Below, in pieces: positions 1,821 through 14,123 of a stretch of 23,896 bases of DNA. Every line of letters begins with the position of its first letter. The first letter of the stretch is position 1. The stretch covers positions 1 to 23,896 of the IMG/VR virus record IMGVR_UViG_3300022227_000031; one strand, written 5' to 3'. The notes beneath the pieces are model-generated. The model had not been told where the DNA came from and searched no databases. It saw only the letters and a program-made list of their open reading frames with translations. Source of the DNA: a virus. Both the position numbers and the translations under genes were made by a program.

Positions 1821-3089
1821 TTAATCTCCTAAAATTTTATTAATACTTTTTAACTTAGAATTAATAGTACCTAACATTTGTTCTTCGATTGAATCCTTAC
1901 ATACAAGAAGCTGAACAATAACTTTATCGGCTTCTTGCCCCATTCGCCTTAACCGACCAATACATTGTCTAAAGGGAATCCAATCTACTTCTACAAAGAT
2001 CATTTGGTGTGCAACTTTCTGAAGTCCATCAAGTCCAACTCCCGCAGCTTTTAACTGCCCAATAAAAACTTTACTCTTTGGATCATTGACAAAATAATTC
2101 TTTACATTTTCTCTTTGGCTTATAGTTAATCCTCCAAAAAATTTAACAGGATAATATCTACCTAATGCTTCTGCTAATTGATTAATTACTGATCGATGAT
2201 AAGCAAACACCACCAGCTTATCTACTATCATTAAAGTATCTTTTATATACTGAATACATTGAGGCAATTTTGCTAAAGCAACTTCTTGTCTTAGTGAGGC
2301 AAGTGCTCCCAATTCTGCCATAGGTTTGAAATAGGATGGAAAAGAACATTCAGATTCCAATTTGTTAATCTGAATGTTCTTTTCCATCCTAATGATTTGC
2401 ACATCAGCTTTAGGCAATGCATCTTTCAAAGTACGCCTCAACATAAACCCTTTCAACATATCCCTTAATTCTAGTTCGTTTGTTGCACCATTTGGCATCG
2501 GCTTACCACTAACATGATCATAATAGCCATCACAAAAATGCATAACATAACTTTCATAGGAATCATATTTTCCTAGATGCTTTCTACCTAATGTATATAA
2601 TAATGGAAAGAGATCTACAGGGCGATTTTCTATTGGCGTTCCTGTAAGCATCCATTTATATTTTGCAGATCTAGCTATTCCAAAAGATCCTAAAACTTTT
2701 ACAGATCTTTTAGAAGTTAATGTTTTTAAATAATGCCCCTCATCTAAAATGATAACATCCCAATTTCTAGCTTTTAATGAATTAAAAATTCTGTCTCTTT
2801 GTAGCAAATCATAATTGATAATGATTACTTCTGCATATTCATCAACTAAAGACTTTCCATTTTCTATAATAGATAAGAAAAGTTTGCGAAGCGACCACTT
2901 TCTAAATTCCTCTTGCCAATGAATCTTAACTGAAGCCGGACATATTATAAGAATACTTCTAGCACATATAAAATCACATGCCCTGATTGCTTGAGCAGTT
3001 TTACCTATGCCCATTTCATCAGCTAATAAAGCATGATAATTCTCAGCTAAAAAGTTTGCACCAGTAATTTGATATTCTTCTAATTTCAT
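1821..3089 (-). CDS. SNF2-like DEAD/DEAH-box helicase
   Basis: 422 aa, a compact phage SNF2/RapA-like superfamily 2 ATPase that would remodel or translocate on DNA during replication or recombination. Motifs in order: Q-like start LEEYQITGANFL (3-14), Walker A DEMGIGKT (24-31), Walker B DEGH (116-119, a DEAH variant), motif III LTGTP (148-152), second RecA lobe with VFAYHRS (294-300), motif V GLDGLQ (352-357) and motif VI QCIGRLRRMGQ (375-385). Both lobes are complete and the length suits phage members without accessory domains. AAAGGGA precedes the ATG. Residues about 234-252, between the lobes, are encoded by a 25-bp perfect inverted repeat, described separately. The gene follows the primase-helicase gene across a structured 100-nt gap. 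Confidence 0.93.
   Translation of the reverse strand: MKLEEYQITGANFLAENYHALLADEMGIGKTAQAIRACDFICARSILIICPASVKIHWQEEFRKWSLRKLFLSIIENGKSLVDEYAEVIIINYDLLQRDRIFNSLKARNWDVIILDEGHYLKTLTSKRSVKVLGSFGIARSAKYKWMLTGTPIENRPVDLFPLLYTLGRKHLGKYDSYESYVMHFCDGYYDHVSGKPMPNGATNELELRDMLKGFMLRRTLKDALPKADVQIIRMEKNIQINKLESECSFPSYFKPMAELGALASLRQEVALAKLPQCIQYIKDTLMIVDKLVVFAYHRSVINQLAEALGRYYPVKFFGGLTISQRENVKNYFVNDPKSKVFIGQLKAAGVGLDGLQKVAHQMIFVEVDWIPFRQCIGRLRRMGQEADKVIVQLLVCKDSIEEQMLGTINSKLKSINKILGD
2332..2391. repeat. 25-bp perfect inverted repeat inside the SNF2 gene
   Basis: Bases 2332-2356 are the exact reverse complement of 2367-2391, with a 10-nt spacer (ccaatttgtt, 2357-2366). The repeat lies wholly in coding sequence, in the segment joining the two helicase lobes. 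It would form a very stable hairpin in single-stranded DNA or mRNA. Confidence 0.97.
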
Positions 3090-5534: not shown

Positions 5535-5726
5535 TTAACTCCTAAAAGAATTATCTTTATAATAAGCTCTGAAAACTTCTTCTGCATTAAAATACCAGTA
5601 GTGCCCTTTCTTAGTTGCCGGAATTATATTTCTACGAGCTAGGGATCTTATCCATAATGTAGTTGTGTTTAATTTTTTTGCAATTTGTTTTGCTGTTAGA
5701 TTTCTAGTATGTTGTTTGTTTATCAT
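5535..5726 (-). CDS. Small helix-turn-helix DNA-binding protein (excisionase/MerR-like)
   Basis: 63 aa from the ATG at 5726; a TTG four codons upstream (5738) is an alternative start, and neither has a convincing ribosome site. The core LTAKQIAKKLNTTTLWIRSLARRNIIPATKKGHYWYFNAEEVFRAYY matches the winged-helix layout of excisionase and MerR N-terminal domains: a first helix, a turn, a recognition helix with RxxARR, then the wing (GHYWYF). It overlaps the end of the O-antigen gene by about 23 nt, so it is probably read from the same transcript. It could be an excisionase, which would imply a temperate phage, or a regulator of the nearby promoter; no integrase is in this window to settle this. 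Confidence 0.75.
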   Translation of the reverse strand: MINKQHTRNLTAKQIAKKLNTTTLWIRSLARRNIIPATKKGHYWYFNAEEVFRAYYKDNSFRS

Positions 5727-6798
5727 TTTTATATACAATAATCATACCTATAATAAACCAGAATAGTATAGAAGTTGGTATAACACTAAAGCTAAATAAA
5801 TTTTGTATTAAATACCCAACAATAGAGGTACTTAATACTATAATTTGTGGGTTTTGGCTTTTCTTTTTGACAATCCAAAAAAATATTGTCAAAAAGAAAA
5901 GCCAACAACCTAAACCTACAAGCCCTTTCTCTATTGCAATATTTAGAGGTTCATTGTGAATCTTATTTTGATCTTGTGTAGGAAACTCTCCTCTTGTATA
6001 ATAATATTGATACCTATATACTTCACTAATATTATCAAGTCCTATTCCAAATACAGGAGATGCCTTTACCATATCAACACCCACGCCCCACATATCTATT
6101 CTACTATTAATTGTACTAGGTTGAGTAAAGAATCTTTTCAAAGGTGTTTGTGGAAATGAAAGATTGAGAATAATGATTATACTTATAATTCCAACTGTAA
6201 TTTTCCAATTAATTTTTCTCCAAATATATATTTGAAATTGTCTTGTATCAGGATTAAAAAACCAAAATCTTTCTTTATACAGTAGTACAAAATACAATCC
6301 TGAAACAAATAAGGCTACAAATGCTGCTCTTGTTTGAGTACCGAAAATTGCAAATATAAAAATTACTGCAAAAAATATATAATATTTTTTACCTTGAGCA
6401 ATTTTATAATATACAAAAGGCAACACCATTATTAAAAATTCACTAAGAAAGTTAGGATGTGAAAGGGTTGAAAACGGTCTTGCAGAACCTTCCATAGCGT
6501 AACTCCCTTTCCAATAATAAGGATCTAAACTTACTTGTTGAACAAGAGCATAAACAGAAACAACAAATCCTAAACTTATTAATATAAGAGAAAATTCAGC
6601 AAAGTTATTACTTGATAATACTTTTATTACTGTATAGTAAGTAATGAGATAACAGAAAAAAGTTAAAAGACCATCATATCTTTGATATGTTCCATAAAAA
6701 CTTAATCTCCAATTAACTGATAGACAAGTTGAAATAATTGCAGAGATTAATATTAAAATTATAGATATGTTAAGAGTTTGTTCTTTAGAAATATGCAT
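5704..6798 (-). CDS. O-antigen polymerase/ligase (Wzy_C/WaaL family) membrane protein, main frame
   Basis: 364 aa with about ten hydrophobic segments. It is an inner-membrane glycan enzyme that would polymerise or ligate surface polysaccharide in the host. Family signatures: LSFYGTYQRYDGLLTFFCYL near residues 32-51, the TRAAF segment at about 155-159, and a large polar loop (about 215-285) with RIDMWGVGVDMVKASPVFGIGLDN followed by KIHNEPL, containing the conserved histidine. The usual first two spans are not in this frame: they are encoded at 6759-6920 in a frame shifted by one base and overlapping by 40 nt. The ATG at 6798 has no ribosome site. With the upstream promoter at 7091-7118 it forms a self-contained cassette, like a phage moron for lysogenic conversion. 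Polymerase versus ligase cannot be decided from sequence. Confidence 0.87.
   Translation of the reverse strand: MHISKEQTLNISIILILISAIISTCLSVNWRLSFYGTYQRYDGLLTFFCYLITYYTVIKVLSSNNFAEFSLILISLGFVVSVYALVQQVSLDPYYWKGSYAMEGSARPFSTLSHPNFLSEFLIMVLPFVYYKIAQGKKYYIFFAVIFIFAIFGTQTRAAFVALFVSGLYFVLLYKERFWFFNPDTRQFQIYIWRKINWKITVGIISIIIILNLSFPQTPLKRFFTQPSTINSRIDMWGVGVDMVKASPVFGIGLDNISEVYRYQYYYTRGEFPTQDQNKIHNEPLNIAIEKGLVGLGCWLFFLTIFFWIVKKKSQNPQIIVLSTSIVGYLIQNLFSFSVIPTSILFWFIIGMIIVYKNDKQTTY
5854..5905. repeat. 21-bp perfect inverted repeat inside the O-antigen gene
   Basis: Bases 5854-5874 are the exact reverse complement of 5885-5905, with a 10-nt spacer (ccaaaaaaat). It is in-frame coding sequence for a membrane span and the basic residues after it (LFFLTIFFWIVKKKSQ). 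The spacer length equals that of the repeat in the SNF2 gene. Confidence 0.97.
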
Positions 6799-6927: not shown

Positions 6928-7033
6928 AATAATTATGTTGTTAGTCTCTACCAGCACATTTGAACACTACTATCTAGAACACATTTCCAACTAAAAAACG
7001 CATAGCCTACCGGGAGACTAACAACGAATTATT
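6928..7033 (-). repeat. Long stem-loop in the leader of the O-antigen cassette
   Basis: The arms 6937-6948 and 7014-7025 pair perfectly over 12 bp. After a short bulge, another 7 bp pair (6928-6934 with 7027-7033). The loop is about 65 nt. The stem sits between the promoter (7091-7118) and the ATG at 6920, ending 7 nt before the start codon, so it would occupy the ribosome-binding region of the leader. The loop holds a direct repeat of ACACATTT (plus strand). Confidence 0.8.
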
Positions 7034-9481: not shown

Positions 9482-9574
9482 TAAGATTAATGCCCTTACA
9501 GGTAAGAGGGCTTGTTTTGGAACTATCCTCTCATTAGCAGCTGCTTGAAGCATACCTGTAAGGGCTAAGATTAA
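9482..9574. repeat. 9-bp direct repeat flanking the 9492-9565 element
   Basis: TAAGATTAA occurs at 9482-9490 and again at 9566-9574, bracketing the inverted-repeat element with one extra T on the left. This is the layout of a target-site duplication, though the repeat is AT-rich and chance cannot be excluded. The right copy runs into the stop codon of the upstream gene. Confidence 0.5.
9492..9565 (-). ncRNA. Pseudoknot element, copy 1
   Basis: A 13-bp perfect outer stem (9492-9504 with 9553-9565) encloses two interleaved helices. S1 is AGAGG 9505-9509 with CCTCT 9527-9531. S2 is GCTT 9510-9513 with AAGC 9548-9551. S1 is flush against the outer stem and S2 flush against S1. The loop between S2 and S1' is 13 nt and ends TAT; a single A precedes the closing arm. 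The same plan appears at 10736-10803 with different stem sequences. It lies in a gap between two minus-strand genes, so minus-strand transcription is likely. It is not an intrinsic terminator, as no T-run follows. Confidence 0.6.
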
Positions 9575-9822
9575 AAATCTTTATAGTATTCATATAGTAA
9601 ATCTTCATCTGAGTATTTTTCATAACCAATAAAGCCATGCATTAAAATATCATACCAATAACTTTCACATCCGATATTTTCATCATGCTCTGCTTTTTTA
9701 ATATCTCGTTCTATTAGTGCATGTTTAATATCATCTCTATCTTTGGTAGTGTTTATATCATGGAATTGTAAACCTTTAGGAGCTAAACCAAAATATTTAC
9801 GAATTGTGTTTTCAATTTGCAT
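9571..9822 (-). CDS. Hypothetical protein
   Basis: 83 aa (MQIENTIRKYFGLAPKGLQF onward). Acidic, tyrosine-rich C-terminus (YSDEDLLYEYYKDF). It uses the duplicated AAAGGGCGTGAACA leader shared with the gene at 9458. No family is recognised. The stop codon overlaps the right copy of the 9-bp repeat that flanks the pseudoknot element. Confidence 0.65.
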   Translation of the reverse strand: MQIENTIRKYFGLAPKGLQFHDINTTKDRDDIKHALIERDIKKAEHDENIGCESYWYDILMHGFIGYEKYSDEDLLYEYYKDF

Positions 9823-9843
9823 TGTTCACGCCCTTTCCAATTT
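9820..9843 (-). repeat. Leader repeat, copy 2 (24 nt)
   Basis: Exact copy of 9456-9479, holding the ribosome site and start codon of the gene at 9822. The flanking sequence is unrelated beyond the 24 nt. Confidence 0.95.
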
Positions 9844-9935
9844 TCCCCGGATGGGTAGGTTAGCGGAGAAAGACTATCTCCTTTTTGTAGGCTGTTTTTT
9901 GATAATAGTAATAGTGCGAAGCATCTCCTTATTTC

Positions 9936-9991
9936 TTTCCGCCCAAAGGGCGGAAAAAAATTTTTGAGATACAGGAGTTTCCCCCTGTATC
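9936..9991 (-). terminator. Paired hairpins, probable terminator region
   Basis: Two adjacent perfect hairpins follow the end of the gene at 10001. The first reached on the minus strand is 9968-9975 with 9984-9991 (8 bp, 8-nt loop). A run of A and T follows. The second is 9936-9944 with 9948-9956 (9 bp, 3-nt loop, GGGCGG core). Neither has a T-run placed ideally, so termination is likely but not certain. The 90 bases between here and 9843 hold no supported gene; they include a 5-bp GGAGA/TCTCC hairpin. Confidence 0.5.
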
Positions 9992-10000
9992 CCAATTTGG

Positions 10001-10348
10001 TTATAATATCCATGTATTGAGGGCAAAATAAAATACATGGACAATGGCAACAATACCTATTGCCTCAAACCATCGTAGCCCTCGGATAACTTGCAAATCT
10101 TTAATCCAATTATTTAAAATTTTAAGTTCTCTTTTTAATTTATCATCTGATTCTATTATTCTATCTGATAAATTAGATTTTTCATTTTCGATGTAATCTC
10201 GATGTATGTCAATAGTTTTTTCGGTTGCAACCTCTGACTCTGCAATCAAATCTTCAATATCTTCTTTTTCAAGATAATATTTTTTGTTAATTTCATTTTC
10301 AATCAGTTCAACAATAGCATATTCAAGATTATCTGCTCTCATACCCAT
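10001..10348 (-). CDS. Membrane-anchored coiled-coil protein
   Basis: 115 aa. Residues 1-90 are charged and helical with coiled-coil character (NEINKKYYLEKEDIEDLIAE, then SDRIIESDDKLKRELKILNNWIKDL). A single hydrophobic span at the C-terminus (about 95-113, FEAIGIVAIVHVFYFALNTW) makes it a tail-anchored inner-membrane protein. The ATG follows AGGAGG closely. The leader and first three codons (Met-Gly-Met) are a near copy of those of the next gene upstream. Function unknown; membrane-tethered coiled coils in early regions can act in superinfection exclusion or host takeover, which is speculation here. Confidence 0.72.
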   Translation of the reverse strand: MGMRADNLEYAIVELIENEINKKYYLEKEDIEDLIAESEVATEKTIDIHRDYIENEKSNLSDRIIESDDKLKRELKILNNWIKDLQVIRGLRWFEAIGIVAIVHVFYFALNTWIL

Positions 10349-10376
10349 TTTGCCCTCCTATGTAAAGGTTAAAAAA
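10340..10376 (-). repeat. Met-Gly-Met leader repeat, copy 1 (37 nt)
   Basis: 35 of 37 bases match 10485-10521. It covers the leader, AGGAGG ribosome site and first three codons of the gene at 10348. Confidence 0.95.
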
Positions 10377-10382
10377 TTAAGG

Positions 10383-10493
10383 CTATGTATTAAACTTGAT
10401 TATTATTGTATAGACTACAATAATAGTCAGTACACATAAACCTAATCCATATAAAATAATCAGTAGTTCTTCAAATAACTCTTTCATACCCAT
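10383..10493 (-). CDS. 36-residue single-span membrane peptide
   Basis: Starts MGMKELFEELLIILYGLGLC, continues as one long hydrophobic stretch and ends VVYTIIIKFNT. AGGAGG precedes the ATG. The leader and first three codons duplicate those of the gene at 10348, and that gene also carries a membrane span, so the two may be expressed as a pair. The last codons contain a hairpin (10398-10410 with 10416-10428, one G-T mismatch, 5-nt loop). A holin-like or exclusion role is possible but unproven. Confidence 0.65.
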   Translation of the reverse strand: MGMKELFEELLIILYGLGLCVLTIIVVYTIIIKFNT

Positions 10494-10521
10494 ATTGCCC
10501 TCCTATGTGAAGGTTAAAAAA
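10485..10521 (-). repeat. Met-Gly-Met leader repeat, copy 2 (37 nt)
   Basis: Near copy of 10340-10376 (two differences), with the ribosome site and first codons of the gene at 10493. The first bases overlap the end of the zinc-finger gene at 10514. Confidence 0.95.
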
Positions 10522-10705
10522 CTTGGCTTGCCTCTTTGTCAAGGTCAATACTGTCATCTATGTTTTTAAGTAATTCTTCTTGTCTTGCCATTTCTCTTTC
10601 TTCATCAGCAAGACAAGATTTACAAATTGTTTCACCAAATAATATAAGCTGTTCATCATGTAACAATGGTGTATTACAACAAATGCAATATTCAATTAAA
10701 CTCAT
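10514..10705 (-). CDS. Small zinc-finger protein
   Basis: 63 aa from the ATG at 10705, chosen because GGAGG lies 8 nt upstream; an in-frame TTG at 10762 would add 19 residues but would start inside the structured element at 10736-10803. CICC (residues 7-10) and CKSC (about 28-31) form a four-cysteine zinc knuckle. The acidic helical tail follows (DEEREMARQEELLKNIDDSI). It lies downstream of SSB across the pseudoknot element. Function unknown. Confidence 0.75.
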   Translation of the reverse strand: MSLIEYCICCNTPLLHDEQLILFGETICKSCLADEEREMARQEELLKNIDDSIDLDKEASQVF

Positions 10706-10735
10706 TTGTAAATCCTCCGAATGAATAAATAAATA

Positions 10736-10803
10736 GGAAAGAGAGTAGAAGGGCTGGTACAATCTTTTTATCCTTCATTATGAACACCAGATACTCTCTT
10801 TCC
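10736..10803 (-). ncRNA. Pseudoknot element, copy 2
   Basis: A 12-bp perfect outer stem (10736-10747 with 10792-10803) encloses S1 (GAAGG 10748-10752 with CCTTC 10772-10776) interleaved with S2 (CTGGT 10754-10758 with ACCAG 10786-10790). The loop between S2 and S1' is 13 nt ending TAT, and one A precedes the closing arm, exactly as in the copy at 9492-9565. The outer stem and both inner helices differ in sequence from that copy yet keep pairing. It lies between the SSB stop and the zinc-finger gene, so it is in the SSB 3' untranslated region and the next gene's leader. Confidence 0.62.
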
Positions 10804-10811
10804 CAAAAATA

Positions 10812-11255
10812 CTATTGAGTAAGAGCAACTTCTTTGGCAGTTGTAGGTAACTCAGCTGAATCATCAAGTGTCTTTTCAGTATCTACAACATTTGTTGGTT
10901 CATCAGCAGTTTCTTCTTCTTTCTTTCTGCCGACAAATTGGAAATCTGTAGCAACAACTCTCAACATACTGCGTTTCTGTCCTTCAGGTGAAATCCATTG
11001 GTTGAGTTGAAGCCTACCTTCAATGAAAATTGGTGAACCCTTAGAAAAGTATGCAAAAATCGTTTCTGCTCGTTTGCCGAACATGCCGACTTCAACGAAA
11101 CAAACTTCCGATTTTTGTTCACCATCTTCTCCTAACCATGTTCTGTTCATGGCAAGACCGAAGTTAACTACCGCTGTATCTTTTTCTGGTAGTTGTTTTA
11201 ATTCTGGTTCTCGTGTTAAATTACCCATAAGCATGACCTTGTTCAAATTACCCAT
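10812..11255 (-). CDS. ssb: Single-stranded DNA-binding protein
   Basis: 147 aa. Coats single-stranded DNA in replication and recombination. The N-terminal OB fold is clear: NKVMLMGNLTREPELKQLP, then VVNFGLAMNR, then VCFVEVGMFGKRAETIFAYF, then KGSPIFIEGRLQLNQW and RSMLRVVATDFQFV. Residues 110-147 are an acidic, disordered tail. The tail lacks the usual C-terminal DDIPF-like tip; it ends EVALTQ. AAAGGA is about 7 nt before the ATG. The gene is preceded by a terminator at 11369-11406, so it probably has its own promoter in 11256-11368, which I cannot define. Confidence 0.95.
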   Translation of the reverse strand: MGNLNKVMLMGNLTREPELKQLPEKDTAVVNFGLAMNRTWLGEDGEQKSEVCFVEVGMFGKRAETIFAYFSKGSPIFIEGRLQLNQWISPEGQKRSMLRVVATDFQFVGRKKEEETADEPTNVVDTEKTLDDSAELPTTAKEVALTQ

Positions 11256-12264: not shown

Positions 12265-12749
12265 ATTCCACTCCTTTCAATTAAATTAACTAAAATATCA
12301 CCATGACATGCTAGTGGTTTACAATAACAACCTAATGTTTTACCTTTTAAACTTAATAATTGTTGTTTTGTAAACTTCATAGCATGTATTCTATACTTCT
12401 CAATAACTTCACTTCTATTACCATCTTTACCAATAATAAATGGATTACCCCAAATACTACCTCTACCAATATACACATCATATAATTTTCTATAATTCTT
12501 TAAATTAACAACTTTAGTTTCCACAATAACCTCCTTATCCGAAACAATTTCAAAAGAATCAAAAGATTTAAGAACTGAATGAATCTGCTTACCAACAGTC
12601 CATTTAAATATTGGTGCAGATTCAATAATAGTTCCAGAATTATTCACAACCAAACCACCACAAGCATAACTAGTAAAAACCCAATATAAAATAGAATGAT
12701 TATTATAGGCTACTTTTTCCAATTTCTTTTCCTTTTTCTCTCTTTTCAT
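12261..12749 (-). CDS. Fusion of a YACGG-type phage domain with DUF4326
   Basis: 162 aa. The N-terminal half (SILYWVFTSYACGGLVVNNS, then APIFKWTVGKQIHSVLK) resembles a stand-alone small phage protein with the YACGG...APIFKWxxGK pattern. The C-terminal half (about 78-162) is DUF4326: KVVNLKNYRKLYDVYIGRG, WGNPF, LKGKTLGCYCKPLACHGDIL with cysteines C144 and C146 and C151-H. First gene of the leftward early set. The first codons are lysine/glutamate-rich (MKREKKEKKLEKV), and the leader plus these codons are duplicated in inverted orientation on the other strand (12793-12880). AAGGAG is 7 nt upstream of the ATG. Confidence 0.82.
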   Translation of the reverse strand: MKREKKEKKLEKVAYNNHSILYWVFTSYACGGLVVNNSGTIIESAPIFKWTVGKQIHSVLKSFDSFEIVSDKEVIVETKVVNLKNYRKLYDVYIGRGSIWGNPFIIGKDGNRSEVIEKYRIHAMKFTKQQLLSLKGKTLGCYCKPLACHGDILVNLIERSGI

Positions 12750-12753
12750 CTCT

Positions 12754-12816
12754 ATCTCCTTTTTAAAAAATTAAAGTTTTGGCTTTAGCTGGACTTTAAT
12801 TTTTTAAAAAGGAGAT
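12754..12816. repeat. 24-bp perfect inverted repeat, core of an inverted leader duplication
   Basis: 12754-12777 is the exact reverse complement of 12793-12816, with a 15-nt spacer. Each arm ends in AAAAAGGAG, giving a ribosome site in both directions. Similarity continues beyond the perfect arms to about 12690 on the left and 12880 on the right with small gaps, covering the first codons on each strand. Confidence 0.95.
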
Positions 12817-12825
12817 GGTTGTGAG

Positions 12826-12927
12826 ATGAAAAGTGAGAAAAAGGGAAGGCTTAGAAATTGGAAAAAGCAAGACTATAATAATAATAACGAAGGTGGATTT
12901 ATTTTGTCCAAAAAGGCAAAGGATTAA
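12826..12927 (+). pseudogene. 33-residue relic or leader peptide copied from the start of the 12749 gene
   Basis: Plus-strand frame MKSEKKGRLRNWKKQDYNNN, ending LSKKAKD. The first 20 codons align in DNA with the first codons of the minus-strand gene at 12749, which begins MKREKKEKKLEKVAYNN. The ribosome site AAAGGAG is about 11 nt upstream, further than normal. It may be translated as a leader peptide or be only a remnant of an inverted duplication. Confidence 0.4.
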
Positions 12928-12980
12928 TAACGAAAGGGTTTCTATAGATGAGTTTGCCGTTATAGCACCAAAATAAATCC
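12895..12980. ncRNA. Third pseudoknot-type element
   Basis: A 12-bp perfect outer stem (12895-12906 with 12969-12980) encloses two interleaved helices: GGCAAA 12915-12920 with TTTGCC 12953-12958, and ATAAC with GTTAT (about 12926-12930 with 12959-12963). The topology matches the elements at 9492 and 10736, although spacings differ. It lies in the non-coding divergent region, so the transcribed strand is unknown. Confidence 0.45.
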
Positions 12981-13281
12981 AGCCGGACAACAAGCAGAAA
13001 CATGACAAGAGGCTTTTGCGATTGGCGTGATTTCTGCTCAACTGGAGATGTTCATTAACTAAAACCAAAGTGCGAGGGAACGAGCATTTCCATGTGCTTT
13101 GTAGTTGAAGAGTTTTTAACTAAAAAAAGTTAAAATTTACTTGTTTTAACTTTATTTATCCTTATGTTTTGTTGTTTTTAAGTTAAAAAGGTTAAACCGT
13201 TGTTAAATGTTGTTATATTTAGGGGCAAATGTGTAAGGGGGTGTTGGTTAGTTTTTAAGGTTTTTAAGTTAAAACGCTCAG

Positions 13282-13295
13282 AATGATATATCATT
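13282..13295. promoter_or_regulatory. 14-bp palindrome, copy 1
   Basis: AATGATATATCATT is a perfect palindrome; an identical copy lies at 13584-13597. Likely a binding site for a dimeric protein. Confidence 0.6.
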
Positions 13296-13303
13296 ATCGG
13301 TTG

Positions 13304-13324
13304 ACCGCTCATTTACCGCTCATT
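13304..13324. repeat. Tandem ACCGCTCATT repeats
   Basis: ACCGCTCATT occurs at 13304-13313 and 13315-13324, an 11-bp period (one helical turn), just beside palindrome copy 1. A variant ACCTCTCATT occurs at 13509-13518. Confidence 0.6.
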
Positions 13325-13552
13325 CATTAAATTAAACTAATGAAAGGTTTTATGACTAGAATGATAGGTTAATAGGTAAAAAGGTATTAAATTATTGTGA
13401 AATGAAAAAAAAGTATTATATGTTTATAAGGTTATAATCTGTGAATTGATAATACAGAACACACAAATATATTTCATTTACAGAAGTATAGAGCTTTTTA
13501 GCGTGATTACCTCTCATTATAGCATCTAAACTTATGAGGCTAATAGAGTTAC

Positions 13553-13648
13553 AAAGTGAGAGGTAAATGATAGGTGAGGGCAAAATGATATATCATTCTT
13601 GGTAAGTTATTCATATATAAGCACTTAACTTTTAGCACCTCTCACTTT
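13553..13648. repeat. 12-bp inverted repeat enclosing palindrome copy 2
   Basis: 13553-13564 is the exact reverse complement of 13637-13648 (core AGTGAGAGGT/ACCTCTCACT). The 72-nt interior contains the second AATGATATATCATT palindrome. Confidence 0.7.
13584..13597. promoter_or_regulatory. 14-bp palindrome, copy 2
   Basis: Exact copy of 13282-13295, about 300 bp away. Confidence 0.6.
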
Positions 13649-13719
13649 TAGCTTTTTAACTTAAAAAGTTAAAAAGGTTAGAAAGATAGATAAGGTGTTT
13701 AGCCTATGAATGAATGATA

Positions 13720-13800
13720 GCGATTGTTGTGTGTTCAATCGCAATGTATCTAAGATGCGGTATGTGTTGTACAATTAGATTGAACACATAAAGCATCTTA
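13720..13800. promoter_or_regulatory. Interleaved inverted repeats with competing hairpin (switch-like)
   Basis: Helix A is TGTGTTCAATC 13730-13740 with 13778-13788 (11 bp). Helix B is TAAGATGC 13751-13758 with 13793-13800 (8 bp). The order A-B-A'-B' makes a pseudoknot. A local hairpin GCGATTG 13720-13726 with CAATCGC 13736-13742 uses the same bases as helix A, so the two folds are mutually exclusive. If transcribed, this could be an attenuator or regulatory RNA. Confidence 0.5.
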
Positions 13801-13840
13801 TAAACAATATAGTCTATGACTTTCATTAACACAAAACTTA

Positions 13841-13881
13841 AGCCCCTACCCCCCTGTTTTTAAAGGGGCTGGCATCCCAGC
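13841..13881 (+). promoter_or_regulatory. GC-rich double hairpin
   Basis: AGCCCCT 13841-13847 pairs with AGGGGCT 13864-13870, and GCTGG 13868-13872 pairs with CCAGC 13877-13881 across a CATC loop. The two overlap, so only one can form at a time. It follows the switch-like repeats by about 40 nt. No T-run follows, so an intrinsic terminator is not clear. Confidence 0.4.
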
Positions 13882-14042
13882 TGGCCGACTACCTTCTTAT
13901 ATAAAAAAGCATCCATAGCTCTTAGTGTGTACAACCATAAAAACCACAAACCTTAAAAGCCCTTTCCAATTATATGAATATATACTTTACTAGAATAAAA
14001 ATTTATAAAATTTTTAGAACCCACCAACATACATAAAACTAC

Positions 14043-14070
14043 TTGACTTATTGTTTAAAATGTGTATTGT
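14043..14070 (+). promoter_or_regulatory. Candidate sigma70 promoter of the packaging/head operon
   Basis: -35 TTGACT (14043-14048), 16-nt spacer, -10 TATTGT (14065-14070). It faces the first plus-strand gene at 14124, which has a strong AAGGAGG site. Confidence 0.5.
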
Positions 14071-14123
14071 TTTTAGGCATGAAAACAACAAATAAAAAAT
14101 TTTAATTTTTTAAGGAGGTAGGG

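Follow-up and report, generated by a model that had tools for sequence, protein, structure and literature searches.

Two structured elements built on the same plan, in which a stem of 12-13 bp (P1) encloses two interleaved helices (PA and PB), occupy gene junctions in the early operon of a marine-type podovirus, and one independent third copy is found in a 47-kb relative. The first two elements lie in a 23.9-kb virus record of IMG/VR (IMGVR_UViG_3300022227_000031; the whole analysed stretch of 23,896 nucleotides is called the window below). We propose an element type defined by P1 enclosing interleaved PA and PB, with UAA 5′ and AUA 3′ of PB on the transcribed strand, and all of these features were found in the three members. 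The type is real but, as far as searchable, rare; its members probably influence the expression of neighbouring genes, and any function proposed for them is putative. The features of the window on which the following account draws are:

9492..9565, minus strand: element 1, whole, 74 nt; intercistronic, from the stop of the 83-aa orf (9571) to the next ATG (9458)
9553..9565, minus strand: element 1, P1 5′ arm, pairing with 9492-9504 (13 bp)
9548..9551, minus strand: element 1, PA 5′ strand GCUU, pairing with 9510-9513
9532..9536, minus strand: element 1, UAAUG directly 5′ of PB
9527..9531, minus strand: element 1, PB 5′ strand AGAGG, pairing with 9505-9509
9524..9526, minus strand: element 1, AUA directly 3′ of PB
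10736..10803, minus strand: element 2, whole, 68 nt; intercistronic, from the SSB stop (10812) to the next ATG (10705)
10792..10803, minus strand: element 2, P1 5′ arm, pairing with 10736-10747 (12 bp)
10786..10790, minus strand: element 2, PA 5′ strand CUGGU, pairing with 10754-10758
10777..10780, minus strand: element 2, UAAU directly 5′ of PB
10772..10776, minus strand: element 2, PB 5′ strand GAAGG, pairing with 10748-10752
10769..10771, minus strand: element 2, AUA directly 3′ of PB
10812..11255, minus strand: SSB gene (PF00436), immediately 5′ of element 2
10514..10705, minus strand: 63-aa orf (CxxC...CxxC), downstream of element 2
9964..9995, minus strand: intrinsic-terminator-like hairpin within the early operon, between both elements; kept in the strain L013
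9571..9822, minus strand: 83-aa orf, upstream of element 1; swapped along with element 1 in L013
9300..9458, minus strand: 52-aa orf, downstream of element 1

The genome shows a podovirus layout, with the early operon (SSB, primase-helicase, helicase) on the minus strand and the late genes (terminase, head-tail connector) on the plus strand. Its connector is 37% identical to that of the nearest annotated phage, one weak relative is located in an alphaproteobacterial MAG, and a 2.3-kb region has no DNA match among 50,697 phage records. According to our own orf list, the early operon contains four gaps of more than 100 nt that hold no additional gene-sized orf; elements 1 and 2 account for two of these and terminator-like hairpins for the remaining two, while most other junctions of the operon measure from -4 to 40 nt. 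Several further features of the window were recorded. The helicase orf contains, in frame, a perfect inverted repeat of 25 bp with 10 nt between its arms (2332-2391, minus strand). The repeat encodes about 20 residues, opposite which the related helicase from the 47-kb phage has an alignment gap, and it has the appearance of an in-frame palindromic insertion. In the minus-strand early region, a Wzy_C gene (O-antigen ligase/polymerase-like; 5704-6798) with its own sigma70-like promoter at 7118-7091 likewise carries, in frame, an inverted repeat of 26 bp (92%) around a spacer of 10 nt (5849-5910, minus strand), which is kept in L013. The long noncoding divergent region at 12741-14120, with many direct and inverted repeats, is possibly an origin or control region.

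Every helix that the preliminary description had listed for its two elements at 9492-9565 and 10736-10803 was recovered in place. On the plus strand, element 1 comprises S1 (AGAGG 9505-9509/CCTCT 9527-9531), S2 (GCTT 9510-9513/AAGC 9548-9551), a 13-nt loop (9514-9526) ending in TAT, a 16-nt spacer (9532-9547) and a single A (9552). The corresponding parts of element 2 are S1 (GAAGG 10748-10752/CCTTC 10772-10776), S2 (CTGGT 10754-10758/ACCAG 10786-10790), a 13-nt loop (10759-10771) also ending in TAT, a 9-nt spacer (10777-10785) and A 10791. The two helices, which had been described as adjacent, are indeed flush in element 1, but in element 2 one unpaired G (10753) stands between them. On the minus strand both elements follow the order P1 - U - PA - spacer - UAAU(G) - PB - AUA... 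(13-nt loop) - PA′ - PB′ - P1′, with P1 and PB flush on one strand, and the minus-strand motif earlier reported as TAATGA followed by AGGATA is present as TAATG-AGAGG-ATA in one and TAAT-GAAGG-ATA in the other. The pseudoknot of element 1 is the weakest, because its PA has only 4 bp and a local hairpin, UGCU-UCA-AGCA, competes with it. In the direction of the minus strand, element 1 begins 5 nt past the 83-aa orf and ends 33 nt ahead of the next AUG, and element 2 begins 8 nt past the stop codon of SSB and reaches to 30 nt ahead of the next AUG.

The interleaved helices of both elements exceed chance. When P1 was kept and the interior shuffled, and flush interleaved helix pairs of equal or greater size were counted, element 1 was matched by 233 of 100,000 shuffles (2.3e-3) and element 2 by 141 of 100,000 (1.4e-3), odds that leave the shared loop length and flanks out of account; a slightly different shuffle rule gave 0.27% and 0.13%, respectively. 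The third copy was matched by 9 of 100,000 (9e-5). In a scan with a relaxed pseudoknot descriptor, scores of 28-29 for the three members compare with 25 for the next candidate and with at most 23.5 in six shuffled controls; a control made from reversed sequence was set aside, since reversal preserves complementarity. Single-strand folding of the minus strand gave a z of about -3.6.

Searches for further copies covered about 5.9 Mb in total (overlaps counted), drawn from several hundred loci of related phages. They included some 220 additional loci gathered by primase, connector and terminase alignments, long stretches taken from about 40 records, and eight complete, annotated phage genomes. 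The third copy was reached through a scan for intergenic stems of at least 10 bp. It lies on the plus strand of the 47-kb contig 3300005253_000595 (L228 5744-5824) and reads GUGUGGAUGAUU-G-UCCUAU-GAAAUUUCUAAA-CAGGAA-AUAUAACAAAUAGGAA-AUAGGA-UUCCUG-AACA-AAUCAUCCACAC, with the helices in the same order as in elements 1 and 2, PA and PB of 6 bp each, UAA(A) 5′ of PB and AUA 3′ of it. A lack of further copies in related phages, which the preliminary description had named as a refutation, is thus not borne out, and the phage that carries this copy is a real relative (terminase 56% identical, primase and helicase 38%). The first base of the third copy coincides with the predicted +1 of a sigma70-like promoter, TTGACA-16-TATACT-TAAAGC-G, the only one with that downstream G found across the contig, and the copy ends 27 nt ahead of the first orf of the late-side operon; the 5′ end of that transcript would therefore be sealed in a helix. 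Because UAA-PB-AUA reads in the sense of this copy's own transcript, the relevant strand in the window is the minus strand, that of the early mRNA, whereas the preliminary description dealt mainly with the plus strand. Since each of the three members is oriented in line with transcription, a role at the level of RNA is favoured over a DNA cruciform.

No Rfam 15 family reached its gathering cut-off in the window, which agrees with the earlier statement that the elements could not be matched to a known RNA class, and a permissive Rfam search of the region returned chance matches below threshold alone (E of 0.76 or more), to eukaryotic or small families. BLASTN of each element against GenBank phages likewise gave chance pieces alone (E of 2 or more), five of which, inspected in context, had no structure, and the third copy found no match in the same collection. 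Nothing above chance was seen in annotated Pelagibacter, Manatee Spring and Limnohabitans podoviruses (the eight complete genomes and MW202485). The exact pattern TAATRRAGGATA-N10..24-CCTYYTA occurs in at least 119 stretches of IMG/VR, with no P1 among the matches listed, which are chance occurrences and in which a frequent 41-nt spacing apparently reflects a recurring, probably coding, sequence. As far as searchable, and among the matches listed, the elements are not a widespread sequence-conserved class. Four other candidates were rejected (L155 7843-7913, L217 9483-9541, L331 7795-7862 and L389 1437-1509), in which the plan is partial and the flanks are missing; their scores equal or lie close to the highest reached by shuffled sequence, or else they form nested hairpins. 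The candidate in L155 is placed like the elements, its stem of 13-14 bp standing directly past a stop codon and about 38 nt ahead of the next start; its interior is GC-rich and able to fold as a nested hairpin. A possible third local copy at 6936-7026 of the window was also rejected, as it lacks interleaved helices; on the minus strand, the leader that connects the sigma70-like promoter at 7118-7091 to a 53-aa orf here forms a stem of 12-13 bp around 65 nt, which has no Rfam match.

Close relatives of the window differ in what they retain. Element 2 is unchanged in a 96% identical contig (L001), an identity that is uninformative. In the 99% identical strain L013 element 1 is absent, the 83-aa orf and element 1 being replaced by a different small gene joined at flanking GGAAAGGGCGT ribosome-binding repeats, so that this copy of the element is dispensable. 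In the sister species (75-79%) the SSB junction does not have the plan and contains other hairpins instead. A hypervariable junction was also observed (window 9855-9960, L013 160-330), with a tandem duplication of about 47 nt in L013 versus a GC-rich hairpin in the window.

The members represent the same plan in different sequence. Common to all three are UAA and AUA around PB and a purine-rich PB (AGAGG, GAAGG, CAGGAA), and two of the three share the 13-nt loop. Homology by descent and statistical covariation are not established, because the helix sequences are unrelated between members, and convergent reuse of the plan is as possible as common descent. The preliminary description had spoken of covariation: pairing is indeed kept while the helix sequences differ, but P1 is unrelated and PA differs in 4 of 4 comparable pairs, and that wording is unsupported because two or three members are neither alignable by descent nor testable with R-scape. 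A MAFFT alignment of the three was not usable, the members being too dissimilar for a trustworthy alignment.

The only position common to all three members is directly upstream of a ribosome-binding region, in one case at the first base of the transcript. Between the end of the element and the next start codon (30 nt for element 2, 33 nt for element 1 and 27 nt for the third copy) lies an A/U-rich linker followed by a Shine-Dalgarno sequence, and when element and linker are folded together as nested structures, elements 1 and 2 stay separate closed units. Because all three members are so placed and one begins at +1, we tentatively favour, short of calling it probable, the reading that they are cis-acting leader or junction elements that protect the adjacent mRNA segment or set its expression. 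They would represent one type of structured mRNA element of about 70-80 nt, a 12-13 bp stem closing an H-type pseudoknot (PA/PB), inserted in a gene junction or leader directly ahead of the ribosome-binding region of the next gene. Such an element would most likely fold as the RNA emerges, forming a compact, RNase-resistant block that would keep the linker and Shine-Dalgarno sequence of the next gene single-stranded; at +1 it would act as a 5′-terminal cap structure, and past a stop codon as an intercistronic barrier. Computation establishes the plan, that it exceeds chance, where the elements lie and how they are oriented; we infer that the pseudoknot forms in the cell and acts on the downstream gene by a protective or translational mechanism. 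Against a leader or junction role speak the small number of members (three), the unrelated downstream genes, the lack of visible loss in L013, which does without element 1, and the different hairpins past SSB in the sister species; moreover, gene junctions are short here, and a minimal ribosome-binding site alone could give the 27-33 nt spacing.

Alternatively, the elements could be plain hairpins (P1, or P1 with PB), the PA pairing inside them and the flanks they share being coincidental. These phages commonly have intergenic stems of at least 10 bp around other interiors, one of them in this window, and the short PA of element 1 with its local competitor fits this reading, but the shuffle odds of all three members, the same helix order, the 13-nt loop in two of three and the UAA/AUA flanks make it decidedly improbable. 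A self-cleaving ribozyme or an excised small RNA, suggested by a compact fold with a pseudoknot between phage genes and by unpaired nucleotides kept at defined places, is highly improbable: neither the search at gathering score nor the permissive one matched an Rfam ribozyme, UAA and AUA alone are kept among the three members, far fewer than in known ribozyme cores, and such an activity makes little sense at the +1 of a transcript. By analogy with the RNase III sites of the T7 early operon, the elements might instead be intercistronic processing signals, P1 stacked on PB forming a 17-19 bp irregular helix that would be cut to separate mRNA segments. The position between stop codon and next ribosome-binding site in an early operon and the flush P1 and PB are in line with this analogy; yet it leaves the interleaved PA helix and the UAA/AUA flanks unexplained, the helix is short for RNase III, and the third copy, at +1, has no upstream mRNA to separate, so that we consider processing distinctly unlikely.

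The most interesting rival is a nascent-RNA antiterminator resembling the putRNA of HK022, in which the folded RNA would bind RNA polymerase as it emerges and cause terminator read-through. The similar length (~70 nt; PMC9378689), the start of the third copy at the +1 of a promoter and the strong terminator-like hairpin at 9995-9964, about 740 nt past element 2, would all suit such a role; since this hairpin stands within the early operon and L013 retains it, transcription must in some way read through it. However, put consists of two adjacent stem-loops and not of a stem-enclosed pseudoknot, element 1 is downstream of that terminator, some 2 kb separate element 2 from the region where the early promoter probably lies, and no excess of terminators is found past the third copy, which leaves antitermination unlikely. 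A translational operator for an RNA-binding protein, as in the T4 gene 32 leader, would account for the layout of pseudoknot, A/U-rich linker and Shine-Dalgarno sequence (PMC535899), and element 2 adjoins the phage SSB gene. This gene, however, precedes element 2 instead of following it, neither element 1 nor the third copy lies close to SSB, and no SSB homologue was detected in the 47 kb of the third phage; the lack of a detectable homologue and the upstream position of the gene weaken the SSB version, and with unrelated genes as its targets an operator of any kind seems distinctly unlikely.

Beyond the leader or junction role favoured above, the elements could belong to an undescribed class of stem-enclosed pseudoknot RNAs, defined by shape and two unpaired trinucleotides and not by sequence, which would serve as a portable cis-regulator at transcript starts and gene junctions of this podovirus group, for example as a protein-free antiterminator or as an mRNA-end protector; we regard this bolder proposal as rather doubtful. 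Few pseudoknots are known as cis-regulators of phage mRNA, and according to a 2010 review that of T4 gene 32 was possibly the only viral one in translational autoregulation (PMC3014915). If a portable, shape-defined element did exist, it would demonstrate that phage regulatory RNAs escape sequence-based RNA family searches. The element is searchable with pseudoknot-aware tools, and the strain that has no element 1 makes a testable case.

Among known systems, the RNase III sites of T7 are likewise structured, lie between early genes and precede the next ribosome-binding site, but they are nested hairpins with internal loops and do not have the pseudoknot plan. In the leader of T4 gene 32, a 5′ pseudoknot is followed by an A/U-rich ribosome-binding region that is unstructured and to which the phage SSB binds (PMC535899). 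The likeness to our elements is one of shape only: the T4 structure, an H-type pseudoknot of 28 nt with no closing outer stem, precedes the SSB gene itself, whereas here a stem of 12-13 bp encloses the pseudoknot and the downstream genes are not SSB. The putL and putR sites of HK022 are also phage elements of about 70 nt, present twice per genome, one of them just downstream of its promoter, so that one can open a transcript (PMC9378689). They differ in being side-by-side stem-loops of conserved sequence, in contrast to the enclosing stem and pseudoknot of barely conserved sequence described here. As regards position, the third copy stands at the +1 of a late-side promoter, and the copies in the window are internal.
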